A stretch of DNA of 64,000 bases from assembly GCF_024398035.1 (NCBI RefSeq), contig NZ_CP073748.1, forward strand, positions 1,649,520-1,713,519. Direction: 5' to 3'. The notes beneath the pieces are model-generated. The model was given only the letters and a program-made list of their open reading frames with translations, was not told where the DNA came from and made no database searches. A program made the position numbers and the translations under genes. Positions 21,293-47,159 of the stretch are shown in pieces. Within the stretch, counting starts at the first letter, position 1. The number at the start of each line of letters is the position of its first letter. This DNA comes from Kordiimonas sp. SCSIO 12603. GTDB taxonomy: Bacteria > Pseudomonadota > Alphaproteobacteria > Sphingomonadales > Kordiimonadaceae.

Positions 21293-21293
21293 G

Positions 21294-23814: not shown

Positions 23815-23823
23815 GGCATTGGC

Positions 23824-25183: not shown

Positions 25184-25226
25184 AAAAAAACTCCTTCCAA
25201 GTTAGGTTGTTCTATCTTGGAAGGAG
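25184..25226 (-). promoter_or_regulatory. Terminator-like hairpin that contains the ribosome site of the PssE-like gene
   Basis: On the reverse strand an 11-bp perfect stem, CTCCTTCCAAG (25226-25216) and CTTGGAAGGAG (25201-25191), with a 14-base loop is followed by seven T (25190-25184) and then directly by the ATG at 25183. The Shine-Dalgarno GGAAGGAG is the 3' arm. When folded, the structure would both resemble an intrinsic terminator and hide the ribosome site. It lies inside the EPS operon, between the two halves of a two-component glycosyltransferase. Confidence 0.75.
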
Positions 25227-25255
25227 CAATGCTTGTGCCAGTGTTGAAAGGGTGG

Positions 25256-25720: not shown

Positions 25721-25724
25721 TAGC

Positions 25725-27895: not shown

Positions 27896-29175
27896 GCGAA
27901 TTTCTCCTTGAGCGGAAGAGAAGGGTATCTGATTTGAGGTTTACGGCGCGGGGCAAGTGCAGGAACAGAAACCGCTGCACCGCAGCCAAGCAGGAAGAAA
28001 AACTGCACCATTAGGGCATTCCAGAAATGAACGGTTAAGCCAGCCAGCGTGAAGCCAAGAATTGTAATGATCCATGCTTTTCTAGCGTTTGTCGTAAGCA
28101 TGCTTTTATTGCGGCGGCTTGTGGTTCTGCGCGCGATAAGAATAATTGCAATAACAAGGCAAAGAAGAGCAGGCAGCCCGTATCTTACTGTTGTAAGCAG
28201 CCAGTAGTTATCCATGGATGAGCTCATCCATGGTGCGCGGATCCAATCATTCAAACCGATACCAAAAAGAGGGTGGCGTGCAACTTCCGCTGTACCGTAA
28301 TTCCAGATATGAACTCGGTTATAGGCGCTGTTGGCACTGAAGGTCAGGTAACTGATGAAGATCAGAACCGGAGAGCGGTTTGACATGAGTGAAAGGATAA
28401 CCCAGCTGAAGCCGAACAGACCCAGAAGGATAGACCATCGGTTCGCAACACCTTTTGTAAACCTGTCCCAGGCGATTAAGCCACCTTGGAAAGCAAGCGC
28501 TGTGAAGGGTCCACCTGACAGAGAAAAGAAGGTTGCCATAACAATTGTGCCAAGGGTTTTTGTGCCCGTTTTATCAATTTTTTCCTTGATCAGAAGGTAA
28601 TAGGCTCCGGCAAATGAACTTGCTGCAAACACACCATAGAGAATTGGGTGTTCAAATGATGTGAAGGCGCGGGTCAGGCCAAGGCGTGGTTCGATATAGT
28701 GTGGGCCAGCACCACCAAGCACTGCTTTGAAAGGTTCACGAAGGATATGAAAACCTGTGAAAGATTCAAGAATTGCAAAACCAAGAAGTGTTGCCGTTAC
28801 AGTGAAAACCAGTTTGATAACGTTAGCGAAATCTTGTGCTGTTTTGATATAGGCCCGCGCTACTAAATAAGCACCAGATGTTTCGATGAAATAAATACCA
28901 CCTGTTTCAATGCCTGAGGCAAAACCCATGTTAATACAGAGCGCAATGGTGGCCCAGATACCGTGGAAAATAACCAAACCATCGAAGAAAGAGAAAGGTG
29001 TTTTAGTGTTGTTCAATACTGCATTGATGGCAGGGAACAACATGATGATAAGAGTGATCCGGTAAGGAGATAAACGAAGCGAGCCCAGAGAAATGGATGT
29101 CTCAGGCGGAAGAGTGAATGTGAAAAGCAAAATCACAATCGGAAGTGCTGGCAATGTGAATTGCCCTTGTTTCAT
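27892..29175 (-). CDS. O-antigen ligase / Wzy-like polymerase
   Basis: A 427-residue protein with about ten to twelve membrane helices. The large loop near the C-terminal third carries HPLFGIGLNDWIRAPW, resembling the Wzy_C / O-antigen ligase pattern. It should polymerise or ligate EPS repeat units at the periplasmic side. Coupled to the FrhB-like gene upstream by a four-base overlap. Confidence 0.82.
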   Translation of the reverse strand: MKQGQFTLPALPIVILLFTFTLPPETSISLGSLRLSPYRITLIIMLFPAINAVLNNTKTPFSFFDGLVIFHGIWATIALCINMGFASGIETGGIYFIETSGAYLVARAYIKTAQDFANVIKLVFTVTATLLGFAILESFTGFHILREPFKAVLGGAGPHYIEPRLGLTRAFTSFEHPILYGVFAASSFAGAYYLLIKEKIDKTGTKTLGTIVMATFFSLSGGPFTALAFQGGLIAWDRFTKGVANRWSILLGLFGFSWVILSLMSNRSPVLIFISYLTFSANSAYNRVHIWNYGTAEVARHPLFGIGLNDWIRAPWMSSSMDNYWLLTTVRYGLPALLCLVIAIILIARRTTSRRNKSMLTTNARKAWIITILGFTLAGLTVHFWNALMVQFFFLLGCGAAVSVPALAPRRKPQIRYPSLPLKEKFA

Positions 29176-30428
29176 TGCGCAGTCCCTTCATGGTTTTGGA
29201 ATGTGATTTTCTTCGCAAGGAATAGCTGCTTGACGATGATACGTTTCATAGTGCCTGCAACGGATTGCACCTTGCTTTTTAGGGGTAGTTTCCACCAGCA
29301 GATGAGACTTGCCTTAGTAAGCTTCGGCGCTTTCAGCCCCGCTAGTTTAAGAGCAAGAGAACGGCCCCATACAGCACCTTTTGTGGCGAATAGATTTGGC
29401 TGAGCCGCAAACAGAATTTCCGGTTTTTGTGGGATAGCTCGCAAATAGCCAGTTTTTATGGCTTTGCGAATAATTCTTTGGCCCCGCGCAGTGCGAACTA
29501 CGATAAGAGATTTACCGTGTTCTTCTTCCTCTGGTGGGTTCTGCCATGGATCACCCACGGAAATATCAGCAAGCTCACCTGTATGATCTGCGCATGTATG
29601 GCAGCGCCACTGACGTTGCTTTTGCAGGATATTGCCCCAACCATCTGCATAAGTTGTTTCAAAAGTGTGGGTTTCTCCGTTTGTGGTTTCCCATTCGGCC
29701 TTCATACTGCCCGGCCAGCCATTGCCACGATATTGAAGATTTTTCAGCGTGCGATCGTCTGTTGCACCGAGATAGTTCAGAAGATTATCTGTACCCTTGT
29801 GGCTTGGTGTGCCCGCACAGAAGATAGAAAGCGTTAGGCCGATTTTATTCTTCAGAAGTTGATTTTGGCGGCTCACTTTTTGAACGCCTTCAATATCGCA
29901 AGGCTTGCCAATAACAACAGATTGACCTTCTGTTTTTTCCAGTTCCGGCAATGCGTCACAAATACTGGCCGGGGCATAACGTGAACCAGCACCTTCCATG
30001 AGTTCGCCTTTGTTCGTGCTGAACGCCGCCATGTTATATTTGGGTTTGTCAGGGTTAGCTTTTATATGAAGAGCGTTGGTGAAGTTACGTTGCTCCAGGC
30101 AGTAGAGAGCAAGTGCCGTTATCGCACCGCCGCTGGAACCTTTGAAACGGATTTCAGCATCATCCGCATAGCCTTCCCATACCTCAAGGATTGGGCCCCA
30201 AGCGGTTGCTGTTAGATCGCCTGTTTCTATATTTGCTTGTTCATTATTCGCGCCTGGGCAGTGGTCAATAATATGGGCTTCAAGCTGCTCACTTAGTTTG
30301 CTGCATACCTTTGGGCGGCGGGCTTCATCTTCAGTTTCATGCATCTGGATATGCTTGGGTGCAATCGCGGCGCAAGCACCACAGCCATTACATAGTCTGG
30401 AGCTAAGAATTTTTTCCAATTCAGACAT
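29172..30428 (-). CDS. F420H2 dehydrogenase/FrhB-like iron-sulfur protein in EPS cluster
   Basis: A 418-residue protein with an N-terminal 4Fe-4S motif (C13, C16, C19 in RLCNGCGACAAI, with C42 and HCPG following) and a coenzyme F420 hydrogenase beta-subunit type body (FKGSSGGAITALALYCLEQ, VVIGKPCDIEGVQKV, LSIFCAGTPSHKGT, ADISVGDPW). Relatives occur in polysaccharide loci beside pyruvyl transferases, as here, where they may carry out a redox step on a sugar. F420 use cannot be assumed. It touches the flippase gene at 30428. Confidence 0.85.
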   Translation of the reverse strand: MSELEKILSSRLCNGCGACAAIAPKHIQMHETEDEARRPKVCSKLSEQLEAHIIDHCPGANNEQANIETGDLTATAWGPILEVWEGYADDAEIRFKGSSGGAITALALYCLEQRNFTNALHIKANPDKPKYNMAAFSTNKGELMEGAGSRYAPASICDALPELEKTEGQSVVIGKPCDIEGVQKVSRQNQLLKNKIGLTLSIFCAGTPSHKGTDNLLNYLGATDDRTLKNLQYRGNGWPGSMKAEWETTNGETHTFETTYADGWGNILQKQRQWRCHTCADHTGELADISVGDPWQNPPEEEEHGKSLIVVRTARGQRIIRKAIKTGYLRAIPQKPEILFAAQPNLFATKGAVWGRSLALKLAGLKAPKLTKASLICWWKLPLKSKVQSVAGTMKRIIVKQLFLAKKITFQNHEGTAQ

Positions 30429-31696
30429 TAGTTTGCCTCCCGAAGATTAGATTTTATGGTCGAAGCACGGCGTGCGAACTTTTGAGTTGGTACGCGGTTA
30501 CGAGCAGTGAAAAGAATGGATTGCACCACACAGGCAAGGATTTCACCAACACAGGCAGTTGCCAGTAACATTGGTAGTGAGCCGCCTGTGTAGATAAAGA
30601 AGGCTCCTAATACGGAAGCCACTACCCGGATGATGTTAGCTTTCAGTGGAATATCTGTTTGTCCAAGAGCTTGAGCTGCAATGGATACAGGGGTTCTGCA
30701 AAGCCTGATAGACTGAGCAAGGCCAACCAAAATAATGATCATCATTTCTGCTTTGAAATCTGCACCAAACAATATCGTAAGCGTTGGGTTCACAAGAATT
30801 ACAAAAGACATGAAGAAAACGAACATGATGCCATATGCCGCAACTTGAAAGGCAGTTACGCGTGAACTGAAGTTATTCCAGTTTTCTTTAGCAAGTACCA
30901 AAATTGGTAACCCAAGTGTAAGTGCTATCCGGCCGATAAGAAGAGCGGGAACCAAAGCTAGTTGGAACAGCATGGAAAAGTGTGCGAATTCGCTTGATGA
31001 CATAATTGAAGACAGGATTACCCGCTCGCCCTGCATGCTCCAAAACATGGTTAAGCTGGTTAAAAGAAGCGGAAATCCAAATTTAACCATTTCAATAAAT
31101 GTTTCTTTGTGTGCAGCTGCTTTATAGCTCTCACCAGAAAAAATATGGGATAGGGCGGTGTGCATACCCGCTTGAGCCAGCATGCAAGCGCAAACGATTT
31201 CCAAGCTTGGAACAATGGAAATTGATGTGAAGATTGCAAACGTGCCCAAAAGCATGGTGCTGCCTTCAACATATAAAGCTGGTGTGAAATTCAGGGTGCG
31301 CTGCTTTAGTCTGTAACCTTGGTGGGTAAAGCCTCTTATAAGTGCACTGCCAGCCAGGAATGCATAGCAGGCAAAGCTGATATTATGTACATTGTGAAGC
31401 CCCATGAGAAGAAGCATTGCTGCTAAAAACAAGCCTCTGATTTGTGCAATAGCATGTGAACCTGCAAGCGCTGCCTTCAGTTTATTTTGGTCTACTTGAA
31501 GGATATAGCGTTCGGTCGCCAGATCGGTCGACATGGCAAATAATCTGATAGCAAGAATAAGAAAGATAAATTCCCCAAGGCTTTCGGCACCTAGCAAACG
31601 GGCAATGATAACGTTCCTTAAGAACACACATCCTTCAAGCAACAGGTGGTTACCTGCAACGGTGCTGATTTTCTTTGCCATAGGAAGCTTAGGCAT
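30428..31696 (-). CDS. Polysaccharide flippase (Wzx/MOP family)
   Basis: A 422-residue membrane protein with about twelve helices; LLLEGCVFLRNVIIARLLGA and ESLGEFIFLILAIRLFAMSTD at the N-terminus are typical of Wzx flippases, which move lipid-linked repeats across the inner membrane. I start at the ATG at 31696 because GGAGG lies six bases upstream; the longer reading from 31729 sits wholly in the upstream gene. It overlaps that gene by eight bases. Confidence 0.87.
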   Translation of the reverse strand: MPKLPMAKKISTVAGNHLLLEGCVFLRNVIIARLLGAESLGEFIFLILAIRLFAMSTDLATERYILQVDQNKLKAALAGSHAIAQIRGLFLAAMLLLMGLHNVHNISFACYAFLAGSALIRGFTHQGYRLKQRTLNFTPALYVEGSTMLLGTFAIFTSISIVPSLEIVCACMLAQAGMHTALSHIFSGESYKAAAHKETFIEMVKFGFPLLLTSLTMFWSMQGERVILSSIMSSSEFAHFSMLFQLALVPALLIGRIALTLGLPILVLAKENWNNFSSRVTAFQVAAYGIMFVFFMSFVILVNPTLTILFGADFKAEMMIIILVGLAQSIRLCRTPVSIAAQALGQTDIPLKANIIRVVASVLGAFFIYTGGSLPMLLATACVGEILACVVQSILFTARNRVPTQKFARRASTIKSNLREAN

Positions 31697-32942
31697 AAAC
31701 CACCTCCAGTTTCTCTTTCGGCTCATCAAGGGCGTAGGAAATATCGTTCATTTGCTGAACCCAAACGCGCTTGGCGTTTGAAAGAGAGAAGGCCAATTCT
31801 GCTTTTGTTTTCCGGCGCTGATTGAAAGAAGCGAAGAGCGCAGAAACCACCTGATCCGTTGAATTTTTACGAAGATCAAATACCTGCTCTTGCTGGCCGC
31901 AGCTGGCGAATACGCCTTTTGCTTTCATGCTGTAAGCCATGTTGCAAACCGGAACGCCTGTTGAAAGCGCGGCGATGGTGGCGTGCATACGAGCACCTGT
32001 GAACCAACAAGTGTTAGATATGGTGCCTTTTAAAAGCTCTGGGCTGTTGGCATTTTCTTCGATTTGAATGCGGTCGCGATATTCGCTTGGTATAGCAAGC
32101 TTGAATGCCCGGGAAGCCACAAGATCACATTCGCTGCCGCCTGAGGGACGTACATGTGGTACTAGAAGTATATCTTTGTTGGTGTCTTCAAGAATTTTAA
32201 GGGCAAATTGAATAAGGCTTTGCTTATAGTCCGCTTTCAAGCCGAATTGTTCTGTTGCCGCTGCTGCATCATGCCATAGTAGGCCGCTTACATTAATGCC
32301 CACTGGCAGATCATCTGGCGTATTATCGCCGCCTACGCAAGGAAGACCAAAAGCAAGATCAACGCCTAAACGGTGCTTCTGCGGATCGAAGTCATCGCCT
32401 AACAAAGTTTGCAGGTTCTTGTAGCTATCTTCATCGCGAGCGTAAGCTAGGTGTGCAGCTTTTAAAATCTTACGTGCAATGCGGCGAGTTTTTGTGAATT
32501 GGTATGGGCCATAGGTTTGCGGCAACAAAATAAGCGGAACGCCTGAATCAATAGCCATCAACTTTGGAACGGTGATTTGTTCAAACCGGGCTGGGCCATA
32601 CATATCTGTAAAGCTATCGCCGCCGCTTACATCAAGAACTGCATCAGCATTCTTTATGGCGGATAGGATAGGCGAAGGTAGGCCGAACATCTGACGCATG
32701 CGAACTTGGTGCATGTTATTTGGCTGATAAAAACGTTTGCCCGGCTTCAATGCTAAAGTGCGGTAATGCAAAGAAAGCAATTCTCCAAGCCGCATACTGC
32801 CACCGTTATCAAGTACAGTAGCTTGTTGTAGACCGCGTTTGTCCAGCGCTGAAAGAAGAGAAAGCGCTAAAGCTGTAACACCGTGGTTTCCGGTATCAGG
32901 TGCCGCGCCGGCGAGGATGATATTTGTAAGCTGTTTTTTCAT
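31689..32942 (-). CDS. Polysaccharide pyruvyl transferase family protein
   Basis: A 417-residue protein. IILAGAAPDTGNHGVTALAL is the family N-terminus, with DAVLDVSGGDSFTDMYGP, LPQTYGPYQ and ARDEDSYKNL in the first half, and TGARMHATIAALSTGVPVCN in the second. The enzyme would transfer pyruvate (a ketal) from PEP to a sugar of the EPS. First gene of the leftward EPS operon. A sigma-54-like site ends almost at its ATG (see 32954-32970). Confidence 0.9.
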   Translation of the reverse strand: MKKQLTNIILAGAAPDTGNHGVTALALSLLSALDKRGLQQATVLDNGGSMRLGELLSLHYRTLALKPGKRFYQPNNMHQVRMRQMFGLPSPILSAIKNADAVLDVSGGDSFTDMYGPARFEQITVPKLMAIDSGVPLILLPQTYGPYQFTKTRRIARKILKAAHLAYARDEDSYKNLQTLLGDDFDPQKHRLGVDLAFGLPCVGGDNTPDDLPVGINVSGLLWHDAAAATEQFGLKADYKQSLIQFALKILEDTNKDILLVPHVRPSGGSECDLVASRAFKLAIPSEYRDRIQIEENANSPELLKGTISNTCWFTGARMHATIAALSTGVPVCNMAYSMKAKGVFASCGQQEQVFDLRKNSTDQVVSALFASFNQRRKTKAELAFSLSNAKRVWVQQMNDISYALDEPKEKLEVVYA

Positions 32943-32953
32943 GCCTTAACTAT

Positions 32954-32970
32954 GGCAACAGCTATGCCAA
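32954..32970 (-). promoter_or_regulatory. Candidate sigma-54 promoter for the EPS operon (very close to ATG)
   Basis: On the reverse strand TTGGCAT, AGCTG and TTGCC give a -24/-12 element with the proper five-base spacer and two deviations from TGGCAC-N5-TTGCA. The -12 cytosine at 32955 predicts transcription starting near 32943, one base before the pyruvyl transferase ATG. Either the mRNA is leaderless or the site is not used as a promoter. Confidence 0.45.
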
Positions 32971-33151: not shown

Positions 33152-33167
33152 TTGGCACGAAGGTTGC
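33152..33167 (+). promoter_or_regulatory. Sigma-54 promoter of the export/exosortase operon
   Basis: TTGGCACGAAGGTTGC matches TGGCAC-N5-TTGC at every defined position. The predicted start is near 33179, 27 bases before the ATG at 33206, leaving room for the AAGAGG ribosome site. A sigma-54 activator is encoded at 39133-40551. Confidence 0.85.
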
Positions 33168-33205
33168 GCTGTTTATGGCTATCTTAATTAATAAGAGGCT
33201 GAAAC

Positions 33206-34933
33206 ATGACACAACAAGCTCCATTTTTTAAAGCCGATGTAATTCAGAAGTGGAAGCAGCACGATTGGGCGCGTTCTTCTCAGCCATATAATGTTTGGTA
33301 TGCTATTCAGCGGTGTATAGCTGGCCTGTCGTTGCTTCTCTTATCTCCTTTGTTTTTGGTTTTATTTGTTGCCGTGAAACTCAATTCGCGCGGTCCCTTT
33401 ATATATAAACAGAGTAGGCCTGGGTTTAAGGGCAAGACATTCACAGCCTATAAAATCAGAACCATGAGTGTGGGAGCTGATAAAGATCTGTCTCGTGCAA
33501 GGCAGGTTAGCAAAGATGATCCAATGGTCACCGGGATTGGTAAAATTCTGCGTGACTTGAAGATTGATGAATTACCCCAACTCTTTAACGTTCTTAAAGG
33601 TGAGATGGCTCTGGTAGGGCCTCGTCCCATTGCGCAGAGCTTACAGGAAGAGCTGGAAGGTAAAATTCCAGGTTTTTCTAGGCGGTTGAATGTACTTCCG
33701 GGGCTTACAAGTCTGGGTCAGGTTTGTATTTTTGATAACGCTGGTGCTGAGCATGTTGTAGATGATTGGAGTACAAGGTTTGAAGCTGAACTGGATTATC
33801 TTCACAAGCATTCATGGCGCTATGATATTGCGATTATTGGCCTGACATGCCTCTTTATCTTTAAGAAAGTAGCGCGGAAAGTTCCAAAATATGTAAAGCC
33901 TCTCGCGCTGTGTATTATTTTTGTTTTTCTTGCAGCTTGCAGCGAGAGATTAGCTACTCGCCCGTTTAATGAAGCAGACACCGCGTACGAAAAAGATATC
34001 CGTGCCTACGGAGACCGTATAGACCCCGCGCTTGTTGAAATAGAGCCCGTAGCCATTGATGTAGAAGCTTCTGAATTTGAAGATCCGGTTTACCGCGTTG
34101 GTTCGGGGGATGCCCTTAGTATTAATGTTTTTGGTGAAGAGGGGTTGGATGATCTGCTTGTACAGGTAGATGGTGATGGCTTTATTCAACTTCCTTTCCT
34201 TGAGACTGTGAACGTAGCAGGGCGGAGCCTTAAAGAAATTCAAACCGTTCTTAAAGCTGGTTTTGCCAAACAATTCCGCAATCCATGGGTTGTGGTGAAC
34301 ATGGCATCCCACAAAAGCCGTCCGGTTTATCTGTTGGGGCAGTTTAATAACCCTGGTGTGATTTACCTTGATGGTCCGACTAACCTTATGCAGGCCGTGA
34401 GCTTGGGACGCGGCTTATCGGAAGCTGCATATCTTAGGGGTGCAAGGCTATGGCGTAATGGTGATATTGCAGCCGTGGACTTGAAGGCGCTTCTGATGGA
34501 GGGCAAGGCAGAGCACAATATTACGCTGAGGGCGGGTGATACACTCGTTGTACCCAGTGCCCGAGATAATAAAGCCTTCGTAATGGGGGCTGTTGTACGA
34601 GCTGGCGCTGTACCATTTTCCAATGAACCAATGACTCTTCTTAAGGCTCTTACACAAGTGGGTGGGCCAGTTAAATCGGCAGCCCTAATGAGCCAGGTTC
34701 GCATTATCCGCACACACTCTGCCATTGAAGGGCAGCTTATTCTGGTGAATGCGGATCACATCCTTAAAGGCAAGGTTCCTGATCTTGAGCTTATGCCTGA
34801 TGACATTGTTTATGTGCCTGATAACTGGATTGAAGGCTGGAACCAGTTTGTGCGCGCTATTGCTCCCACCATCCAACTTGCTGGGGGTGCCTTACAGCCA
34901 TTCATCCAAGTTAAATTTCTGAAAGGAGACTAA
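33206..34933 (+). CDS. Fusion: EPS sugar transferase plus Wza-like export lipoprotein
   Basis: One 575-residue frame holds two proteins usually separate. Residues 30-225 are a bacterial sugar (phosphoglycosyl) transferase of the small PglC-like kind: a membrane helix (CIAGLSLLLLSPLFLVLFVA), YKIRTM, KDDPMVTGIGKILRD, KIDELPQLFNVLKGEM and LVGPRP. After a basic stretch (FKKVARKVPKYVKP) comes a lipoprotein-like signal with lipobox LAAC, cysteine at 245. Residues 290-575 are a polysaccharide export domain (VYRVGSGDALSINVFGEEGL, SLBB-like repeats, LMPDDIVYVP). No in-frame ATG, GTG or TTG precedes the lipobox, so separate translation seems unlikely. It heads the rightward operon. Confidence 0.88.
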   Translation: MTQQAPFFKADVIQKWKQHDWARSSQPYNVWYAIQRCIAGLSLLLLSPLFLVLFVAVKLNSRGPFIYKQSRPGFKGKTFTAYKIRTMSVGADKDLSRARQVSKDDPMVTGIGKILRDLKIDELPQLFNVLKGEMALVGPRPIAQSLQEELEGKIPGFSRRLNVLPGLTSLGQVCIFDNAGAEHVVDDWSTRFEAELDYLHKHSWRYDIAIIGLTCLFIFKKVARKVPKYVKPLALCIIFVFLAACSERLATRPFNEADTAYEKDIRAYGDRIDPALVEIEPVAIDVEASEFEDPVYRVGSGDALSINVFGEEGLDDLLVQVDGDGFIQLPFLETVNVAGRSLKEIQTVLKAGFAKQFRNPWVVVNMASHKSRPVYLLGQFNNPGVIYLDGPTNLMQAVSLGRGLSEAAYLRGARLWRNGDIAAVDLKALLMEGKAEHNITLRAGDTLVVPSARDNKAFVMGAVVRAGAVPFSNEPMTLLKALTQVGGPVKSAALMSQVRIIRTHSAIEGQLILVNADHILKGKVPDLELMPDDIVYVPDNWIEGWNQFVRAIAPTIQLAGGALQPFIQVKFLKGD

Positions 34934-34935
34934 TA

Positions 34936-35793
34936 GTGAAGAATTCTTCCAAAATTCTTATAGCCACTTTGCTTGGGACATTCTTGTCCGGGGCAAGTTT
35001 CGCTGGAACGGTCTCTCCAGTGCAGTCAAGCGCAAGGCCTTTTGGCCTTGAACCTATTGGTGATGTGCAGCTGAAGGGATCAGATGCTGCCGCTGCTGAT
35101 TTTGTCGCTAATGATCTTTCAAACCTGCAGGCGATTGTAAATAATACGCTGACAGAAAGCCAATCTATTGGTGATGTATCATCAATCGCACTTGACCCCT
35201 CAGATTTGTTTCTAAGTGAAACATCATCTGTTAGATCGTACTTTATTGGTGAAGGTGCCGGTTACCGGAATAGTCTCGGTGTTTATACTGGCGATAGTTC
35301 GGATGGCCTGAATGGCGATGCTTCGCTTATTTTGCCAGATGCTAGCACCAGTGGATATTACAGCTATCTGAACTCGGATTACCGTTCAAGCAGTTACCCC
35401 GTTGCACCGGGAGATTTTGTTGACCTTGGCGAATTTGAAGCTGGTACACAACTCAATCTGTTCCTGATAGCAAACGGCGCTTCAGGAGGCACAACAACCT
35501 ATTTCACCGATATGGCGCTTAATCCGGATGATATTGATCATTTCGTTGTTCTAGCTACTCCTAACAGTCCGTACTTGCTTGTAGGCGTTGAGGACTTACT
35601 CGGAGGTGGTGACGAAGACTATAACGATGTGGTTGTAGCGCTTGATGTAGGTACCGTAAATGCCAGTAAGATGATTGCGAATGCAGTACCGCTCCCAGGG
35701 CCGGTAGCTGCCCTTCTTGGCCCGCTTTTCTTACTTGGTTTTGCTAAACTTCGTCGCAAGAAAACAACCGATGAGATGGCGGTATGCGCTTGA
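34936..35793 (+). CDS. PEP-CTERM-like exosortase substrate with DUF4114-type domain
   Basis: A 285-residue secreted protein. A signal peptide (to about SFAG, residue 24), a middle with GGGDEDYNDVVVALDVG typical of DUF4114 calcium-binding-like domains, and a C-terminal sorting signal from residue 251: VPLPGP motif, hydrophobic helix, then KLRRKK. This is the tripartite form recognised by exosortases. Start is GTG at 34936, eight bases after AGGAG. It lies immediately upstream of the exosortase gene, overlapping it by ten bases, so it is probably a dedicated substrate. Confidence 0.88.
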   Translation: MKNSSKILIATLLGTFLSGASFAGTVSPVQSSARPFGLEPIGDVQLKGSDAAAADFVANDLSNLQAIVNNTLTESQSIGDVSSIALDPSDLFLSETSSVRSYFIGEGAGYRNSLGVYTGDSSDGLNGDASLILPDASTSGYYSYLNSDYRSSSYPVAPGDFVDLGEFEAGTQLNLFLIANGASGGTTTYFTDMALNPDDIDHFVVLATPNSPYLLVGVEDLLGGGDEDYNDVVVALDVGTVNASKMIANAVPLPGPVAALLGPLFLLGFAKLRRKKTTDEMAVCA

Positions 35794-37139
35794 TTTTGAG
35801 CAAATATCGTCTTGGTGCTTTAGCTGCAATGGTTGCAGTGGGTTTTTACCTGCTGCTACCACTGCTGGAAGCCAGCCTGAAGACAGATCACTGGGCTATC
35901 ATAGCTTTATCTATGTTTAGCATTTTATTAATTGCCGCAGGAAAGTCGGACGAAAGAGTTTTCGGGCGTGGATGGCTGTTGCTCTTAAGTGCTCTCGCAT
36001 TTCTATTGCATATTGCGCTGGATATTCAAAAACTCGTCTATCTATCAGGCATGTTCCTGATCGTGTTCACCATATCAGAGTGCTTTAAACTATCTTTTAA
36101 AAAGACTGTTTGGATTACAGTGTGTGGGGTGTTGATGCTTCCAGTTCCTTACGGTTTGGAACAATCTGTGGGGGTGTGGCTTGCTACTATTGAAGCAGAA
36201 ATGTTTGTTACACTGGCCCAACTTTTGGACCTGCCAGTGTACAGATATGGATCACAGGTGGTTTCTGGTGAAGTAACAGTTACTATCAACACAAATTGCA
36301 GCGGTACACTGCTGTTCATCCCTGCATTCCTCGGCTGTTTGGTATGTGCTTCCATTCGGGATATTTCCCTTAAAGGTAAGCTGGGTATCATTGCTTCAGC
36401 TTTGCCTATTGCTATTGGGGTGAACCTTCTTCGCTTGTCTGTTTTATTGATTTTGAATTTTCAGGCACCGGAAGATTTAGTGAATACCTTCCATGACTTC
36501 CTGGGCTGGTTTATCATGCCAGTTGTTTGGCTTTTGCCTGTTTTAATCTTCCTACCACTTAATGAATTGGTACTGCCAGACATTAGACTATGGTCAGAGC
36601 AGACTGCCGCCTTTGCTTTTGCTTTAACTGTATCCAGCGTGAGTTACACGGCTTTAAGCGTAACTGAGAAAACGGATATCGAAGTAATTAGCGAGGTACC
36701 AAACTACGTAGCTGGATGGGTTGGTGAGCGGACAGATATTTCAGCTGAAGAACAAAAAATCATCAGTGCTGATTTTCTATCCCGTAAAACATTTTATGCA
36801 CCGACCAGCGAGAGGCAGTTAATTCTGACCGCCATTTTCCATGAAGACAGCAATAAATCGCAGCAGCATTCGTCAGCCATATGTTTTCGCGCGCTTGGCT
36901 GGATTGTGTCTCATGTGGAATTTCAAGATGAAAACATAGATGCCAGTATTGAACATCTGTTGGTGCGCAGCCACGCACAGGTTCAGGCAGTCGCTGAAAT
37001 TGTGGCTGAAATACCGGGAAAAAAAGGACGATTACGTCTGCAAATTGTGGAAGATCCCAAAATTCCGTTGTCTGCACGTAGGGCAGTTGCTCTGCAATTT
37101 CTGGAACAAATTCAATCTCGTTTGGGGAAACAATCATGA
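35784..37139 (+). CDS. Exosortase fused to EpsI-like domain
   Basis: A 451-residue inner-membrane protein. Residues 1-260 have about eight helices and the exosortase triad: C172 in NTNCSGTLLF, R217 in NLLRLSV and H237 in NTFHDFLGW. Residues about 290-451 resemble EpsI (DUF3485): a GW motif (VAGWVGERT), Y-type core, and HSSAICFRALGWIVSHVEF, equivalent to the VCYPGxGW signature. Exosortases cleave and anchor PEP-CTERM proteins. Overlaps the substrate gene by ten bases and the TPR gene by four. Confidence 0.9.
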   Translation: MRLILSKYRLGALAAMVAVGFYLLLPLLEASLKTDHWAIIALSMFSILLIAAGKSDERVFGRGWLLLLSALAFLLHIALDIQKLVYLSGMFLIVFTISECFKLSFKKTVWITVCGVLMLPVPYGLEQSVGVWLATIEAEMFVTLAQLLDLPVYRYGSQVVSGEVTVTINTNCSGTLLFIPAFLGCLVCASIRDISLKGKLGIIASALPIAIGVNLLRLSVLLILNFQAPEDLVNTFHDFLGWFIMPVVWLLPVLIFLPLNELVLPDIRLWSEQTAAFAFALTVSSVSYTALSVTEKTDIEVISEVPNYVAGWVGERTDISAEEQKIISADFLSRKTFYAPTSERQLILTAIFHEDSNKSQQHSSAICFRALGWIVSHVEFQDENIDASIEHLLVRSHAQVQAVAEIVAEIPGKKGRLRLQIVEDPKIPLSARRAVALQFLEQIQSRLGKQS

Positions 37140-39136
37140 AACGTTTGATCGTACTAATATTGTTGATCGCCGGGTTGGCGACTGGCGGATTTTACAGCTT
37201 TAAACAACATCAAAGAAGTAAATGTGAAGCCTGGCTCGCTGAGGCTGATCAATTTATGCCACAAGGGTATTATGCTTCTGCTATTGAAGTGTTGACCCTG
37301 TATTTCTCCAATAAGAATTGTCGAACCAAAACGGATATTCACGCAATAACGCTTCTTTCTGAAGCACGCCTTCATGTTCCCTTGCCGGATAACGCGCATC
37401 TGGCGCAGGAGATTATGCTGAATAAACTTGGATGGAGCCTAAAGCGGGACCCCCGCTACCACTTGCCGCAAGCTGTGGCGTATCTTGGTGGTGAGAAATG
37501 GTTAGAGGCACAGAGAAGTGCCAGAAAGGCGGAGGGCCAACAGGCTGCGTTAATCTTACTAGCAGCATCTATTAAATTGGATGATGAAGAAAATATACTT
37601 CATGCACTTGAAGAATTACATTCCGTTGAAACCTCGCCACTCGTATGGGCAATTGTGGAAACTTCATTAATATCAGCCGAGGCGGTACAGTTTGACGTTA
37701 AAGATATCGTGCCTTCTATCCCCCGTGAATGGCGAACGTTTGCATCCCGTATTTTGGCTCCTTCAGTACCAGATGGTTTCATGTTTTTGGAACAACTGTC
37801 TTTAACTCCTTTAGAAGGAGAAGACTTAACAATTGCAACATCCTTACTTCTTTCTGAAGGAAGACCTCTTGACGCGATTGCAGCACTTGAAAACGCTTCG
37901 GAAGGTTTAACTGCCGAGCAGGCAAGCCTGTTAGCCAAACTATATTGGCGGATTGGTATGTTTCATAAACTTGTTTACCGGTTTCCTGAGAATATTCTCG
38001 ATACGGCCCCTTTATTAAACGTGCAGCTATTAAAGTGCCTTGGGGCCTATGCTTTAGAGGCCAAGTGTGAGTTCAAAATGGATACGGCTGACATTCAAAA
38101 ACGATACGGTAAATATGCTGCATCAGTTTGGGGTGAATTAGCTCAAAATCTCTCTAATGGAAAAATAGAATATGCGCCGACACTGAATGCTTTAGAGCGT
38201 GCGGGGGATATTCTGCCTGATATGGGACCAATCTTTCAGCTAAAGAGTAAATTATATCAAGCAATTGGTGAGAATGAGCTTGCACTCATAGCGGAAAAGA
38301 ATGGAGCCATTCTTTCGGGTAAAGGCCCTGAATGGGCTGTGTTTGAAAATGCTGGCGAGAAAACTGACAATACAGAGATTTGCGAAGGTTTTGTATCTGA
38401 CGCGAAGATTGATAATCTGGCGCTCATAAGAGCCTGTGTCGAGGAAGCAGATAAAACAACTAACCTTCATGTAGAGGCGATTAAAAACGCCAGTCCTGAA
38501 AAAGCGATATTCTGGCGCCTGGTTGAAGCTCGGTATCTTTTGATGTCTGGCGAAAGTGCTCAAGTAGCAAAAGCTATTCAGATTTTGAGGCCTGTTCTTA
38601 AATGGGCCCCTAATAACGCGCGTGCTTTCCAGCTTCTATCAGTTGCATACGCTTATTTTGATGATCTCGAAGCCACCTATGCTCATTTAGCAACGGCCGT
38701 TAAATTGCGTCCTGAATTTACAGTTGAGGCAACAAGGCTTGCGCTGGGTTTTTATCAAAACGGCAAGGAATTGTCTGGCAAGCAGCTGGCGCACTGGTGG
38801 GGGGCTTTTACACATATTGAACTAAATCAATATAACAGGTCTTCGGAAGTAGAACTCCGCAATCTGGTAAGGGATCGGTTGATGCTATTGGCTCAAATAG
38901 CGGAGGACAGTAAAGATCATGATCTTGCTCTCGCGGTATATCTAAAACTTCTTGAAATAGAAGAGGTTAATCATATTGCGCTCAATAACCTTGCATACAA
39001 ATTATATGAAACCCAGGGTGATTTGCAGCATGCGCTAGAACTAGCTGAAAGAGCCGTAAAGCTTGCGCCGAATGTTACTGAATATCAGGCAACACTCTCT
39101 GATATTCAGCAAGCAATTGAAGCGCAAGGATCTTAG
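37136..39136 (+). CDS. TPR-repeat protein of the exosortase locus
   Basis: A 666-residue protein with an N-terminal membrane helix (LIVLILLIAGLATGGFYSF) and a helical body. TPR-like motifs are clear near the C-terminus: LKWAPNNARAFQLLSVAYAY and ALNNLAYKLYETQGDLQHAL, ELAERAVKLAPNV. Long TPR proteins with this position are common in PEP-CTERM/EPS loci (PrsT-type), though I cannot confirm orthology. Its stop overlaps the stop of the convergent sigma-54 activator gene (shared TTAG, 39133-39136). Confidence 0.82.
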   Translation: MKRLIVLILLIAGLATGGFYSFKQHQRSKCEAWLAEADQFMPQGYYASAIEVLTLYFSNKNCRTKTDIHAITLLSEARLHVPLPDNAHLAQEIMLNKLGWSLKRDPRYHLPQAVAYLGGEKWLEAQRSARKAEGQQAALILLAASIKLDDEENILHALEELHSVETSPLVWAIVETSLISAEAVQFDVKDIVPSIPREWRTFASRILAPSVPDGFMFLEQLSLTPLEGEDLTIATSLLLSEGRPLDAIAALENASEGLTAEQASLLAKLYWRIGMFHKLVYRFPENILDTAPLLNVQLLKCLGAYALEAKCEFKMDTADIQKRYGKYAASVWGELAQNLSNGKIEYAPTLNALERAGDILPDMGPIFQLKSKLYQAIGENELALIAEKNGAILSGKGPEWAVFENAGEKTDNTEICEGFVSDAKIDNLALIRACVEEADKTTNLHVEAIKNASPEKAIFWRLVEARYLLMSGESAQVAKAIQILRPVLKWAPNNARAFQLLSVAYAYFDDLEATYAHLATAVKLRPEFTVEATRLALGFYQNGKELSGKQLAHWWGAFTHIELNQYNRSSEVELRNLVRDRLMLLAQIAEDSKDHDLALAVYLKLLEIEEVNHIALNNLAYKLYETQGDLQHALELAERAVKLAPNVTEYQATLSDIQQAIEAQGS

Positions 39137-40551
39137 ACAGCTTCTTTTTTCAGCCAGTCTTCTTTTTTACGGTAGATCGTGGAAGGGCTTACACCAAGTG
39201 AATCTGCGGCTTTCGGGATACTGCCGCTAAAAGCTTCAATTCGGTCTTCGATGATTTTCTTTTCGAGCTCCGCCAGTGTTGCCAGCGAATTGCCTTCCAG
39301 GCTAATTGCCTGAGAAGGTTGCTGCACAGGAATGCTGTTCGGAATTTCCTGAGAAATCGGAGATAGTGAACCAAGCTCTCCTTCAAGCGGTGGGAACATT
39401 TCCTGAGTAATCACTTCACCATCGTGAAGCACGGCCATGTTGCGGATTGTATTCTGTAGCTCCCTAACATTTCCAGGCCAGTTGTATGACATAAGTAGTG
39501 CTTGTGCACCTGCATCAAACCCTTGGAATTGTTTACCTTCTTCTTCTGAAAACTTAGCCAGAAAACTGGAAGCAATTTCAATCACATCCTGACCACGTGC
39601 GTTTAGTGGAGGCAACGCAATCGGTACAACATTAAGGCGGAAATATAGGTCTTCTCTGAACCTGCCGGCACGCACTTCTTCAATCGGATTTCGGTTGGTG
39701 GCGCAAATTACCCGCACATCTACATGTTCAGGCTGAGAAGCACCAACAGGGTGAACCATGCTGGTTTGAAGAAAGCGCAGAAGCTTTTTCTGCAAGGTTA
39801 AATCAAGCTCACACATTTCATCCAGAAACAGAGTACCACCTTCTGCGGCTCTTGCCGCACCTTCACGGTTTGAAATCGCCCCGGTGAAGGATCCTTTCAG
39901 ATGACCAAATAGTTCTGATTCCAAAAGATCATGGGGAATAGCAGCGCAATTTACAGGAATAAAAGGCTTTTTCGCGCGAGGTCCAGCTTTGTGAATGGCC
40001 TCCGCGCACAGTTCTTTACCTGTGCCCGACGCACCTGTGATAAATACTGTCGCCTTCGATGCAGCCACGTTTTCAATGGTTCTGTAAACACGCTGCATGG
40101 AGCTGGAGGAGCCAATGAAATCGTGGAATGAGCCGCTTTGATGTGTTTGGCGAAGTGTATCAATTTGCTCCCGGAGCATTACCCTTTCAAGCGTGTTGTT
40201 CACTGTTGTGATCAAACGGCTTTCGCTGAAGGGTTTTACCAGATAATCAAGCGCGCCTAGCTTCATTGCATGCACCGCATTATTCAGCGAGGAATCCGCT
40301 GTGATGACAATTGCAGGCGTTTCGTTCGGCGTTCCCTGAATTTCTTCAAGAAAACTAAGCCCGTCACCGTCTGGAAGGTTGAGATCAAGAAGCAGTAGAT
40401 CATAGTTTTCTTCTTTGATCGCTTCTCTGGCGGCAGCAAGTGTTTCAACGCTCTTTACGCCTAAGCCAGCCAAATTGAGCTGCTTTTCATAGAGAAGAGC
40501 CATAGAGAGAACATCTTCGATAAGTAATATCTTGCTTTCGAGGGTCGTCAT
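39133..40551 (-). CDS. prsR: Sigma-54-dependent response regulator, PrsR-like (PEP-CTERM-box regulator)
   Basis: A 472-residue NtrC-family activator. Receiver with D56 in LLLLDLNLPDGDG (1-120); AAA+ domain with Walker A GASGTGKE (173-180), sigma-54 contact loop GSFTGA (220-225), and Walker B GGTLFLDE (238-245); Fis-type helix-turn-helix at the C-terminus (IPKAADSLGVSPSTIYRKKE). A PrsK/PrsR pair controls PEP-CTERM and EPS genes through sigma-54 in several bacteria. Here the gene follows a hybrid kinase by 14 bases and the sigma-54 promoters at 33152 and 43427 are its likely targets. Confidence 0.9.
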   Translation of the reverse strand: MTTLESKILLIEDVLSMALLYEKQLNLAGLGVKSVETLAAAREAIKEENYDLLLLDLNLPDGDGLSFLEEIQGTPNETPAIVITADSSLNNAVHAMKLGALDYLVKPFSESRLITTVNNTLERVMLREQIDTLRQTHQSGSFHDFIGSSSSMQRVYRTIENVAASKATVFITGASGTGKELCAEAIHKAGPRAKKPFIPVNCAAIPHDLLESELFGHLKGSFTGAISNREGAARAAEGGTLFLDEMCELDLTLQKKLLRFLQTSMVHPVGASQPEHVDVRVICATNRNPIEEVRAGRFREDLYFRLNVVPIALPPLNARGQDVIEIASSFLAKFSEEEGKQFQGFDAGAQALLMSYNWPGNVRELQNTIRNMAVLHDGEVITQEMFPPLEGELGSLSPISQEIPNSIPVQQPSQAISLEGNSLATLAELEKKIIEDRIEAFSGSIPKAADSLGVSPSTIYRKKEDWLKKEAV

Positions 40552-40565
40552 AAAGCTATCCTCCG

Positions 40566-42830
40566 CTATCTATATAATTTACCGGTATCTTCAATCATCT
40601 GAAGGCCTTTAGGCAAGGTCTCACAAATGGTGCGGCCGGTATTTAATGTTTCTGTTACCAGTTCATTTTTCCAGTGAACTTGTGCCTGTTCGGATAAATG
40701 CTGAATACGCGGCAGGCCAAATGTACCGCTTACGCTCTTGAGCTGGTGAGCCATTTTAGCGACATGATCCGGGTCATGATTTTGAAGACCTTCCCGCATA
40801 CCATCAAGAATTTTGCTCAAATCTTTAAGGCTCTGATCAATCAATAAACCGCAACTTTCCTCATCCAGCGTTTCCAGTAAACTTCCAAGTCTTTCCTGTT
40901 CGAAGAAAGGAATAGCGTTCTCTTGGTCTAAATTCTCGGTTATCGGTTCTGCCGTATCGCCGGATAGGTCAAGTGCGTTTTCAATCGCGTAATATAGTTG
41001 TTTTCTGTTGAAAGGCTTTGTCACCAGATCAACCATCCCTGCAGATTGGAAATCCTGCCGGTCTTCATCCATGCCGTGGGCAGTTAGCGCATATATTGGA
41101 GGTGCGGTTTCTTTGCCCAGCATTTGTATGATACGTTTAGTCGCTTCAATGCCGTCCATGCTTGGCATGGCAATATCCATGAAAATAATATCATACGAGT
41201 GCCTGCGCGCGGCCTCTACAGCTTCAATACCATTGTTAGCGATAGTAACCCGGCAACCAAACCGTTCTAGCTCGGTGCGTACGATGATTTGGTTGGTAGG
41301 TACATCTTCAGCCACCAGCACACGGGCTCTTCTATTCAGCCTCTCTTTGAAGTTTGTAAGAATGCGTTCTTCGGTTTGAGGTTGGCTCTCAGCGGCGGTG
41401 GCCACTTTAAAGTCCGCAGCTAACCAGAAGGTTGCTCCGTTGCCCAATTGGCTCTCTACACCCACTTCACCAGCCATAAGGCGTGCCAGCTGCCTGCAAA
41501 TAGCCAGGCCAAGACCTGCACCTTCAACGTTTGATCTGCTTTGTGTACGTGTTTGTGAAAATTCTTCAAAGATAATAGCTTGGTCCTCAAGGCTAAGGCC
41601 GATACCAAAATCCTGAAGTTGAAACCTTAATTGATTGCTGTCTTCAGACGATGAATTTGCGCATGTTACTGCGAGTACTAGTTTTTCAGTTTCCGAATAT
41701 TTCAATGCGTTTGAAATATAATTGTTGATAATTTGCCGTATTCTGGCGGGGTCACCCCAATAAGCACCCTTAACCTCATCATCGATACAGATATCCAATG
41801 TACAATTTTTTGCTTCCATATGCGGGTGCCAAAAATATTGGATGGAACCAATCAATTCGCGCACGGAAAATACAGATGGTTCAAGCTTCAATGTGCCGGC
41901 TTCTGTACGAGCAAAATCAATAACATCATTTAGAAGTGTGTGAAGGGTTTGGCCGCTGGTTTTGGCCATATCCACAAGAGCTGATGATCTACTAGGCAGG
42001 TCTTCATCTCCAAGCAGGTCAAGGCTGCCTAATATTCCGCTTAGAGGCGTACGAATTTCGTGGCTGATTGCCGCAACAAACCTGGATTTAAGGGCGCTAT
42101 GTTCTTCTGCTTTATCTTTTGCGGTCTCTAGTTCTTCTTTTAGGGAGGTGAGCTGTTTTACCTTTTCTTCCAGCTCATTTGCTCTTGTTTCCACTTCTTG
42201 CTGGGCCTGACGTTCGGCGATTTTAGCCGCAGCATATGATGCCACTGTTCCTAAAATTTCTAAATCATTCTCATTGAAATGGTGTCTGTCTGGGTGTTCG
42301 CAATCAATCACACCAAGAAGGCGGTCACCGTGGATCATCGGTACACAAATTTCAGAACCGCCAGGCATTACATCTGGCACGTATCGAGGGTCGTTTGTTA
42401 CATCGCTGATAATTTCCGCTTCACCGGAGAGAGCAACATTCCCTGTAATACCTTGCCCTAATGGAATTTCCAGAGGATTGAGTATCTCGTGCCCTTGAGG
42501 GTTTTTCTCCGCAATCGCAGCGGTTTGGATAAGGCGCTGAGTACCTTCATTAAACAGATAGAATACACAATCGGTGAAACCCAATTTACCAACAACTTCT
42601 TTAGCCACATACCAGCCAAGCTCATCAACGGTTTTAAGTTCGGTAACCGCAATGGCAAATTCATTTAAAATATGAAGCCGCCGCTGGTGTCCTTCATTAC
42701 TTCGCGACAAGCTTTCATTCAGTTTGTAGAGCTCAAGGCTTTTTGCCTCAAGCAACTTTTCAGCCTCTATACGAGCTTGTTTTTCACGTTCGTAACGAAG
42801 TTTATCGATATTTTTTGGCAAGCTGTTCAT
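40566..42830 (-). CDS. Hybrid histidine kinase: GAF, HisKA, HATPase, receiver, HPt
   Basis: A 754-residue soluble kinase. An N-terminal coiled coil (YEREKQARIEAEKLLEAKSL), a GAF domain (about 50-205), HisKA with H257 in AISHEIRTPLSG, HATPase with N-box INNYISNALKYSE and FQLQDFGIGL, G2 GAGLGLAI, a receiver (MDIAMPSMDGIEATK, K in VTKPFNRK), and an HPt domain with AHQLKSVSGTFG. The N-terminal coiled coil is also in the other H-NOX-linked kinase. It follows H-NOX 2 with an ATGA overlap and precedes the sigma-54 activator, its probable final phosphate acceptor. Confidence 0.9.
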   Translation of the reverse strand: MNSLPKNIDKLRYEREKQARIEAEKLLEAKSLELYKLNESLSRSNEGHQRRLHILNEFAIAVTELKTVDELGWYVAKEVVGKLGFTDCVFYLFNEGTQRLIQTAAIAEKNPQGHEILNPLEIPLGQGITGNVALSGEAEIISDVTNDPRYVPDVMPGGSEICVPMIHGDRLLGVIDCEHPDRHHFNENDLEILGTVASYAAAKIAERQAQQEVETRANELEEKVKQLTSLKEELETAKDKAEEHSALKSRFVAAISHEIRTPLSGILGSLDLLGDEDLPSRSSALVDMAKTSGQTLHTLLNDVIDFARTEAGTLKLEPSVFSVRELIGSIQYFWHPHMEAKNCTLDICIDDEVKGAYWGDPARIRQIINNYISNALKYSETEKLVLAVTCANSSSEDSNQLRFQLQDFGIGLSLEDQAIIFEEFSQTRTQSRSNVEGAGLGLAICRQLARLMAGEVGVESQLGNGATFWLAADFKVATAAESQPQTEERILTNFKERLNRRARVLVAEDVPTNQIIVRTELERFGCRVTIANNGIEAVEAARRHSYDIIFMDIAMPSMDGIEATKRIIQMLGKETAPPIYALTAHGMDEDRQDFQSAGMVDLVTKPFNRKQLYYAIENALDLSGDTAEPITENLDQENAIPFFEQERLGSLLETLDEESCGLLIDQSLKDLSKILDGMREGLQNHDPDHVAKMAHQLKSVSGTFGLPRIQHLSEQAQVHWKNELVTETLNTGRTICETLPKGLQMIEDTGKLYR

Positions 42831-43378
42831 ACAGGTATTTGTATCTCAAAGATTGTATGATTACCATCATGTGTTTGATGCGAGGTTTCACTTATGATTT
42901 TGTGCGCGTTTTTGAAATAGGCAAGGCAGGCACTTGTTAAACCGCGGGCAACAGCAGCCAGCGGACGCTGTGATCTATATGTTAATTGGTATTTTCCATC
43001 TTTTCCCTCTGTTAGAATAATTTCTGGGGGGCGAGCGTCAGGATATAGCTTCTTTACTTCCACATGAATATGGCTGCCGACCTGATCAAGGAAATCCAAG
43101 CCGGAAGTAACACCCTCAAAATATTGAGGAAAGAGCTCAGCGAAACGGTGAAGCAATACTTTGCCAAACTGTTCGGCGATGTCATTCGGGTCTCGCTTTA
43201 GATGCTCAGACAGTGCAACATGAATATGGGCAAATTCTTCAAAGCTGTAATTACCGACAGAAGTGTATGAGCCGTTTATTTTATCACGAAGATCAAACAG
43301 AATTTTCTCAATATCGGCCTCAGATGTGAGGCTCGCCGCAAAATCCAGGTATTCCGTAAATAAAATGCCCCGCATCAT
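42827..43378 (-). CDS. H-NOX heme domain protein, copy 2 (canonical motifs)
   Basis: A 183-residue H-NOX. MRGILFTEYLDF opens the domain; predicted proximal ligand H105 in SHIHVEVKKLYPDA; the YxSxR motif is intact (Y134-R-S136-Q-R138). It should sense nitric oxide (or oxygen) and modulate the adjacent hybrid kinase. I use the ATG at 43378, the first of two adjacent ATGs, after AAGG; the longer reading from 43600 covers the promoter region. Its stop overlaps the kinase start. Confidence 0.92.
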   Translation of the reverse strand: MMRGILFTEYLDFAASLTSEADIEKILFDLRDKINGSYTSVGNYSFEEFAHIHVALSEHLKRDPNDIAEQFGKVLLHRFAELFPQYFEGVTSGLDFLDQVGSHIHVEVKKLYPDARPPEIILTEGKDGKYQLTYRSQRPLAAVARGLTSACLAYFKNAHKIISETSHQTHDGNHTIFEIQIPV

Positions 43379-43425
43379 TTTCACCTTTGCAAAATAGAAA
43401 TTGAAACCTTGTCGGGCTTCCCAAA

Positions 43426-43442
43426 TTGCAACAGACGTGCCA
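43426..43442 (-). promoter_or_regulatory. Sigma-54 promoter of the H-NOX 2 operon
   Basis: On the reverse strand TGGCAC (43442-43437), five bases (GTCTG) and TTGCAA (43431-43426) match the -24/-12 consensus perfectly. The predicted start is near 43416, 38 bases before the ATG at 43378. It implies that the sensor operon, including its own sigma-54 activator, is activated by itself. Confidence 0.85.
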
Positions 43443-43485: not shown

Positions 43486-43545
43486 CCCTATCTTTGCATA
43501 TTGCAAAAGCATAATGCGAAAACCTTTCCAAAATGCAAATGTTAT
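43486..43545. promoter_or_regulatory. Putative enhancer region upstream of the H-NOX 2 promoter
   Basis: It contains the palindrome TTTGCA-TAT-TGCAAA (around 43493-43507) and TTCCAAAATGCAAAT (43526-43540). The second, read on the reverse strand, is ATTTGCATTTTGGAA and matches ATTTGCAATTTGGCA at 33029-33043 in 13 of 15 positions. It lies 84-114 bases upstream of the sigma-54 promoter. Confidence 0.5.
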
Positions 43546-45199: not shown

Positions 45200-45247
45200 T
45201 AATCCCTCCCTACGAATTACTTAGTGTATAGGTGACGAAACGAGCCG

Positions 45248-47086: not shown

Positions 47087-47143
47087 TGGAACTGGATAAT
47101 TTCAACGAAAATAATTGTTATGAAAACATTGTATGTCTAATTA

Positions 47144-47159
47144 TTGGTACCGATTTCAA
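47144..47159. promoter_or_regulatory. LacI-type operator candidate 2
   Basis: TTGGTACCGATTTCAA is a near-palindrome centred on CG, resembling candidate 1. It lies in the divergent gap between the hydrolase and the glycerate kinase genes. A LacI regulator is encoded at 48522-49535. Confidence 0.45.

Follow-up and report, generated by a model that had tools for sequence, protein, structure and literature searches.

A candidate nitric oxide-responsive H-NOX operon co-inherited with an exosortase and exopolysaccharide locus in Kordiimonadaceae

Introduction

Which signal governs the genes of an exosortase pathway? The stimulus of the kinase governing PEP-CTERM/exosortase genes was termed obscure when that kinase was named PrsK, according to the available text of PMC1569441. 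A 64,000-nucleotide stretch of Kordiimonas sp. SCSIO 12603 (G000; contig NZ_CP073748.1, positions 1,649,520 to 1,713,519; hereafter the window) raises this question in a particular form, as an operon encoding an H-NOX protein, a hybrid histidine kinase and a sigma-54 activator lies in it beside an export/exosortase operon and an exopolysaccharide (EPS) operon. This exosortase locus bears a sensor with an in-principle known ligand, nitric oxide (NO), and its candidate promoters and enhancers have been mapped, so that the question is testable; if such control is true, the exosortase pathway acquires a defined chemical signal. The genomic evidence described here makes it probable that a self-contained NO-responsive phosphorelay governs coat production.

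The H-NOX, kinase and activator operon

Three intact minus-strand genes for H-NOX, the kinase and the activator form one operon (Table 1). The H-NOX stop codon overlaps the kinase start by 4 bases (42827-42830), and 14 bases separate the kinase and activator genes, just as a first-pass annotation of the window had described. The operon runs head-on into the plus-strand export/exosortase operon (33206-39136), and the genome, 3.85 Mb in size, has one rpoN gene. The first gene product, H-NOX1, is a member of the H-NOX family, with an HNOB match above the cut-off, the proximal His105, invariant in 15/15 aligned H-NOX proteins, and the sequence YRSQR at the YxSxR motif. The distal tyrosine has an O2-binding role in the O2-binding H-NOX family, and a valine occupies this position of the alignment in H-NOX1. 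The H-NOX open reading frame (ORF) as listed from GTG 43600 is overlong; homology begins at ATG 43378/43375, which places the promoter candidate some 50 bp ahead of the H-NOX gene.

The operon partner, the N-terminal motif and the kinase His/Asp residues identify the second gene product as an H-NOX-associated kinase. It has no membrane-like stretch, the top 19-residue hydropathy being 1.09. His257, Asp552 and His695 of the Hpt domain are all invariant in 8/8 aligned kinases, so that the operon itself could supply a complete His-Asp-His relay leading to the activator. The N-terminal H-NOX-partner motif, ARxxAExxxExKSxxLY, was derived in this analysis and not from the literature; a first, stricter pattern matched 1/54 ORFs directly downstream of H-NOX (76 loci, other organisms), and the pattern widened after inspection matches 51/54. 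Outside these partners it occurs in 2/920 non-kinase ORFs and in 8/19 other kinases, six of which start just after H-NOX. Both kinases that accompany an H-NOX gene in the window match the motif. The kinases of three other genomes, G025 (two kinases), G044 and G019, fall outside the pattern, and their N-termini resemble near variants of it.

The activator had been called PrsR-like, an identity that does not hold, and a PrsK identity of the kinase is not supported. The best NCBIfam match of the activator is LuxO, with 555.7 bits over residues 10-467 (NF041946), and the PrsR model (TIGR02915) gives 352.7 bits, under its cut-off of 502.6. A PrsR scan of the whole genome matched 29 places, none of which reaches the cut-off; the best, at 372.4 bits, lies elsewhere, and the locus activator ranks fifth. 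For the kinase, PrsK (TIGR02916) is outside the best 25 of the 142 NCBIfam families listed. Assignment to LuxO proper was likewise rejected, the NF041946 equivalog having a full-length cut-off of 800 bits. The nearest solved structure is that of LuxO (5ep0, E 1.5e-125), and the activator has the wider marks of the LuxO/SypG type, a REC-AAA-Fis architecture and LuxO-type sites at its likely targets. By its sequence, the activator thus looks LuxO/SypG-like, and neither PrsR nor LuxO proper. A LuxO-like paralogue of 50% identity is encoded near rpoN in the same genome (G000:C1:502892-510445; paralogue match 502892-504316).

Table 1. Features of the window, with positions counted from its first letter
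Feature	Position	Strand	Basis or remark
H-NOX (HNOB) NO sensor	42827..43378	-	PF07700 96.8 bits vs cut-off 25.5
Hybrid histidine kinase, H-NOX-partner motif (ARIEAEKLLEAKSLELY)-GAF-HisKA-HATPase-REC-Hpt	40566..42830	-	Pfam
LuxO/SypG-like sigma-54 activator, REC-Sigma54_activat (AAA)-Fis HTH (HTH_8)	39133..40551	-	Pfam, NCBIfam
Sigma-54 promoter candidate of H-NOX operon, TGGCACGTCTGTTGCA	43427..43442	-	exact TGGCAC-N5-TTGC
Sigma-54 promoter candidate of export/exosortase operon	33153..33168	+	exact TGGCAC-N5-TTGC
Divergent sigma-54 promoter candidate of EPS operon, TGGCATAGCTGTTGC	32955..32969	-	1 mismatch
Candidate internal sigma-54 promoter before GT28-type gene	25225..25240	-	exact match
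Perfect LuxO-type enhancer site, TTGCAATATGCAA	43494..43506	.	~50 bp upstream of H-NOX operon promoter
Second enhancer-like site	43526..43538	.	1 mismatch; upstream of H-NOX operon
LuxO-type enhancer site, TCGCAAAATGCAA	33075..33087	.	1 mismatch; between divergent promoters
Two enhancer-like sites in coding sequence	24993..25024	.	~215-235 bp downstream of GT28-type promoter
Sugar transferase fused to Wza-like polysaccharide export protein, internal lipobox	33206..34933	+	
DUF4114 protein, VPLPGP...RRKK tail resembling exosortase sorting signal	34936..35793	+	Pfam; tail read from sequence
Exosortase family protein	35784..37139	+	PF09721 74.3 bits, cut-off 25.7; also passes TIGR04178
TPR protein	37136..39136	+	weak PrsT match under cut-off
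EPS operon: pyruvyl transferase, flippase, FrhB-like, Wzy-like, glycosyltransferases, Wzz-like, weak REC	21294..32942	-	Pfam, synteny
REC-Hpt protein, Wzz end of locus, in relatives too	20600..21310	-	Hpt just under cut-off
Second H-NOX, YKSRC for YxSxR	18838..19380	-	PF07700 122.8 bits
PAS histidine kinase with same H-NOX-partner motif	17500..18828	-	
REC-HD_5 (degenerate HD-GYP: SGLGK, YQN, GWP) and REC-HDOD response regulators	15228..17485	-	HD motifs as read in the DNA

Co-inheritance with the export/exosortase locus

H-NOX is found in 15/59 relatives. Co-occurrence was counted over 29 family genomes with the sugar-transferase/Wza gene as the marker of the locus: 11 genomes carry H-NOX, 11 carry the marker and 10 carry both. 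H-NOX is thus present in 10/11 family genomes with the locus and 1/18 without it (Fisher P 5.8e-6, kinship ignored), and within the genus in 7/8 with the locus and 0/11 without it (P 1.6e-4, kinship likewise ignored). The order H-NOX, kinase and LuxO-like gene beside the TPR, exosortase, DUF4114 and sugar-transferase/Wza genes is kept in eight genomes (G000, G016, G003, G005, G006, G017, G018 and G022). The activator gene leads in G019 and is divergent from H-NOX in G025, with the membership still retained in both. An exosortase adjoins the locus in all 11 genomes that bear it. This pattern, which had been absent from the first-pass annotation, shows that an NO-LuxO/SypG-type operon is gained or lost together with its likely target genes in Kordiimonadaceae.

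In another family of the order, G044 (L033 5825-10476) has H-NOX, hybrid kinase and LuxO-like genes near a DUF11 protein; sigma-54 and enhancer sites precede its H-NOX gene, and its sole exosortase match is on another contig. About 15 kb adjoining H-NOX1 in the window (43628-58662, with a symporter, a glycoside hydrolase and others) is not at the corresponding place in K. laminariae (G016), where a homologue of 58807-60159 adjoins H-NOX.

Promoters and enhancers

Perfect sigma-54 sequences before the H-NOX and export/exosortase operons had been noted in the first pass, and both are exact matches. Lone matches were dismissed as proof: sites with at most one mismatch number 6 in the window against 3.9 expected, and exact TGGCAC-N5-TTGCW occurs 9 times genome-wide against 5 in a backward control, both near chance. 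The candidates are credible because their position before the genes is conserved, so that TGGCAC-N5-TTGC at such a place marks a predicted promoter, and their activity is likewise a prediction. A sigma-54 site (at most one mismatch, as for all sites below unless stated) precedes the H-NOX operon in 6/7 other operons of the window layout, the exception being G022. The CsaB-Wza intergenic region contains two outward-facing sites about 200 bp apart in 9/9 genomes, which are 9 of the 11 locus-bearing genomes, G009 and G017 being left out; the minus-strand member of this pair is new relative to the first pass. The internal site before the GT28-type gene recurs in 9/9 genomes examined.

The enhancer sites, also new, were recognized by the LuxO consensus TTGCAWWWTGCAA, which is given in the available text of PMC10162802; V. 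cholerae LuxO sites have been mapped by chromatin immunoprecipitation sequencing (ChIP-seq), according to the part of PMC10328515 at hand. The 300 bp before H-NOX in the window contain one perfect and one one-mismatch site, where 0.04 are expected and none of 1000 shuffles matches this. Over 17 upstream regions, grouped after the sequences had been viewed, 10 have an enhancer and 9 a sigma-54 site. All eight contiguous H-NOX-kinase-activator operons, namely those of the window layout listed above, have an enhancer in the 300 bp upstream (P <=0.045 each), as do the H-NOX gene of G044 and the activator-first operon of G019; among these 10 enhancer-bearing regions, a sigma-54 site is missing in G022 only. 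Neither site was found before the H-NOX gene of G020, which is probably not first in its operon. Between the divergent promoters, an enhancer site is present in 8/9 genomes, G025 being the exception, and only 3/9 beat shuffles at 0.05.

Genome-wide, an enhancer motif judged by raw count was dismissed; the motif is informative only through its placement and with an A/T centre. The own genome has three TYGCAWWWTGCRA sites, against one for the backward control, and two exact TTGCAWWWTGCAA sites, all of them within the H-NOX/EPS cluster; over the 11 locus-bearing genomes, 26/46 TYGCAWWWTGCRA sites fall within the cluster. The coding enhancer-like sites beside the GT28-type promoter occur in 9/9 genomes examined. 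A codon null that preserves the protein gives P 0.03-0.13 in eight genomes, and these sites are therefore suggestive only; protein constraint accounts for much of them.

Proposed mechanism and alternatives

In the mechanism that we infer, the hybrid kinase would autophosphorylate at His257 when NO is absent, and the phosphate would pass to Asp552 of its own receiver domain, to His695 of the Hpt domain and then to the LuxO/SypG-like activator, which would bind TTGCA-N3-TGCAA enhancers and open sigma-54 promoters. Its predicted targets are its own operon, giving positive feedback, the operon for the export, VPLPxP, exosortase and TPR proteins, and the divergent EPS operon. NO, the presumed ligand, would when bound to H-NOX cause inhibition of the kinase, so that phosphorylation of the activator would fall and the coat would go down. 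The GAF domain may provide a second input beside H-NOX. The sign of the NO effect on the kinase, taken from V. fischeri, is only a prediction because NO raises biofilm in V. harveyi while it inhibits biofilm in V. fischeri. The first-pass proposal linking sensor, kinase and activator to the exosortase/EPS locus, with indications of positive autoregulation, finds comparative support in co-inheritance, promoters and enhancers; its PrsK/PrsR identity is not supported.

Several observations weigh against this mechanism. Kinship among the genomes renders the Fisher P values too small. The locus of G009, a genome 76% complete in 360 contigs, has no H-NOX that could be found; it is the one instance among 11 of an otherwise identical arrangement without H-NOX, which the first-pass annotation had named as grounds for refuting its proposal, and the kinase there is also different. 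Within 300 bp upstream of each of its two H-NOX and two activator starts, G025 shows neither an enhancer nor a sigma-54 site, besides lacking an enhancer between its divergent promoters, and G022 has no sigma-54 site before H-NOX. Taken by itself, the window enhancer at 33075-33087 falls short of significance (P 0.074 against shuffles). The pattern TTGCANNNTGCAA is not enriched over the window (7 against 7.0 expected), nor is there enrichment of loose TYGCANNNTGCRA across the genome (13 matches versus 10 for the control, 4 of the 13 in the cluster), and the G019 cluster holds 0/3 of the TYGCAWWWTGCRA sites of that genome. Of the 26 sites in the cluster, 8 or more correspond to the one inside the GT28-type coding sequence (8 confirmed), and LuxO-like paralogues may use the same enhancer sites. 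The Y/R positions of the enhancer pattern were admitted after the sites had been viewed, and our confidence in the phosphorelay, which remains good, is placed a shade lower because of this partial fitting.

The LuxO-like paralogue near rpoN, or another phosphate donor such as the REC-Hpt protein of the locus, might be the main driver, with the H-NOX branch merely trimming its output. Activator-like matches (E<=1e-100) occur in 37/59 genomes, including all 29 family members, whether or not they carry the H-NOX locus; TYGCAWWWTGCRA sites are also seen in G008, G012 and G013, genomes with neither locus nor H-NOX, and in G017 and G018 LuxO-type TYGCAWWWTGCRA sites are about 75-80 bp away from where the paralogue match begins. 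In the own genome, however, 3/3 TYGCAWWWTGCRA sites are in the H-NOX/EPS cluster, the 300 bp preceding the paralogue contain none, and the locus activator accompanies the locus, which makes this explanation unlikely.

It is somewhat less likely again that the circuit governs EPS, with the exosortase operon a passenger and NO control of the exosortase incidental. In G020 (L032 8194-19301), which lacks this locus, H-NOX, kinase and LuxO-like genes adjoin Poly_export and Bac_transf/WecG genes; LuxO-type sites are present ahead of the Poly_export and Bac_transf genes and some 110 bp upstream of a dehydrogenase gene that is followed by H-NOX, and a one-mismatch site is some 55 bp upstream of the LuxO-like gene. 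No exosortase match was found in this stretch, and two exosortases are on other contigs. A search for exosortases near H-NOX genes, as the first-pass annotation had advised, covered up to 10 kb on each side of the best 80 of at least 590 H-NOX loci and yielded three, all of this locus type; around the other 77 of these best 80 loci (the second H-NOX of K. laminariae and 76 others) no exosortase was detected within the stretch by the profile used, which was constructed in this analysis from 36 exosortases found in the order and whose reach to distant exosortases is uncontrolled. Against the passenger role, a separate sigma-54 site, pointing away from the EPS operon, precedes the export/exosortase operon in 9/9 genomes, and locus and exosortase adjoin in 11/11.

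Very unlikely is that H-NOX1 is no physiological NO switch and reads redox or heme state, or that the real input comes through the GAF domain, because H-NOX1 retains His105 and YxSxR without the distal tyrosine of O2 binders and the operon kinase bears the partner motif, absent from both G009 kinases, although a similar GAF domain occurs in the other kinase of G009 and the second H-NOX lacks the Arg of YxSxR.

The G009 locus (L097 9459-13114) has a membrane hybrid kinase and a GAF kinase, both without the partner motif, and a LuxO-like gene is on another contig; the other kinases in place of H-NOX and its partner kinase are a possible natural sensor swap.

Export/exosortase and EPS operons

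The EPS operon diverges from the export/exosortase operon, and together they form a gene block that constructs a sugar coat and directs proteins to the surface. The sugar-transferase/Wza protein is encoded by a single ORF of 575 amino acids with the internal lipobox LAAC, and the fusion and the Cys are conserved in 9/9 aligned genomes, a layout as if a polyprotein were cleaved by signal peptidase II. The two halves are in different reading frames in G009. For the DUF4114 protein, NCBIfam gave no matching model. The VPLPA-specific XrtD (TIGR04152) is the nearest model to the exosortase and was rejected at 80.6 bits, far under the cut-off of 400.

Second H-NOX operon

A second H-NOX operon, which the first-pass annotation had not included, lies on the minus strand at the opposite end of the EPS operon (15228-19380). 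In G000 and K. laminariae alike, its H-NOX reads YKSRC, with the Arg of YxSxR lost, and this residue change may alter heme binding. Of 59 genomes, G000 and K. laminariae alone have H-NOX2 in this position, and G025 carries its second H-NOX elsewhere. The 300 bp preceding H-NOX2 contain no sigma-54 or enhancer site in G000 and G016. There is an even chance, in our estimate, that these elements make up a family-specific NO-gated exosortase regulon, in which a LuxO-type H-NOX cassette takes the regulatory place of the PrsK/PrsR of classical PEP-CTERM systems and two separate NO-sensing modules bracket the locus here, one leading to transcription and the other probably to HDOD/HD-GYP-type outputs.

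Comparison with known systems

H-NOX and an exosortase were not found together in the open PMC literature, nor were H-NOX and Kordiimonas. The first-pass claim of novelty stands to this extent, and a route from H-NOX through LuxO/SypG to biofilm is already known in Vibrio. HnoX of V. fischeri inhibits HahK, NO inhibits biofilm, and SypF/SypG relay the action of HnoX-HahK to syp-dependent biofilm, as described in the available text of PMC12369376; the hnoX-kinase operon, the sigma-54 activator, the polysaccharide locus as target and NO inhibition through HnoX are shared features of the HnoX-HahK-SypF/LuxU-SypG system. SypG sites resemble LuxO sites, according to the part of PMC10162802 at hand. 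SypG and SypF are encoded outside the hnoX-hahK operon, however, and the available text of PMC12369376 does not name an exosortase, whereas one operon of Kordiimonas contains the sensor, a kinase with its own Hpt domain and the activator, with its own candidate enhancer and sigma-54 sites. In V. harveyi, H-NOX/HqsK feeds LuxU/LuxO and NO raises biofilm through H-NOX/HqsK, as stated in the accessible text of PMC3759921. H-NOX, kinase, phosphorelay protein and LuxO are again shared, but that text ties the system to quorum sensing and LuxR, whereas the candidate enhancers of Kordiimonas are directly at the EPS/exosortase operons.

The PrsK/PrsR/PrsT systems of PEP-CTERM/EpsH share a kinase, a sigma-54 regulator and a TPR gene near EPS/exosortase genes, together with sigma-54 sites, as far as the available text of PMC1569441 describes them. 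PrsK is a transmembrane kinase there, whereas the Kordiimonas kinase shows no membrane-like segment and is paired with an NO sensor, and unlike in those systems the PrsR and PrsT model scores are under the cut-offs in Kordiimonas. The second H-NOX operon resembles Shewanella HnoX/HnoK/HnoB/HnoC/HnoD in its kinase and receiver proteins, one of them a degenerate HD-GYP protein (HnoD), but has REC-HDOD in place of the EAL protein HnoB (PMC6335343, available text).

New are the one-operon layout, the candidate enhancers directly at the structural operons and the exosortase operon as likely target, so far within this family only. The Vibrio-like logic from NO to LuxO/SypG is condensed into one operon in Kordiimonadaceae, and judged from these genomes, Kordiimonas-type marine bacteria probably switch their sugar coat in response to NO by a circuit that resembles that of Vibrio and is wired to a different export system.

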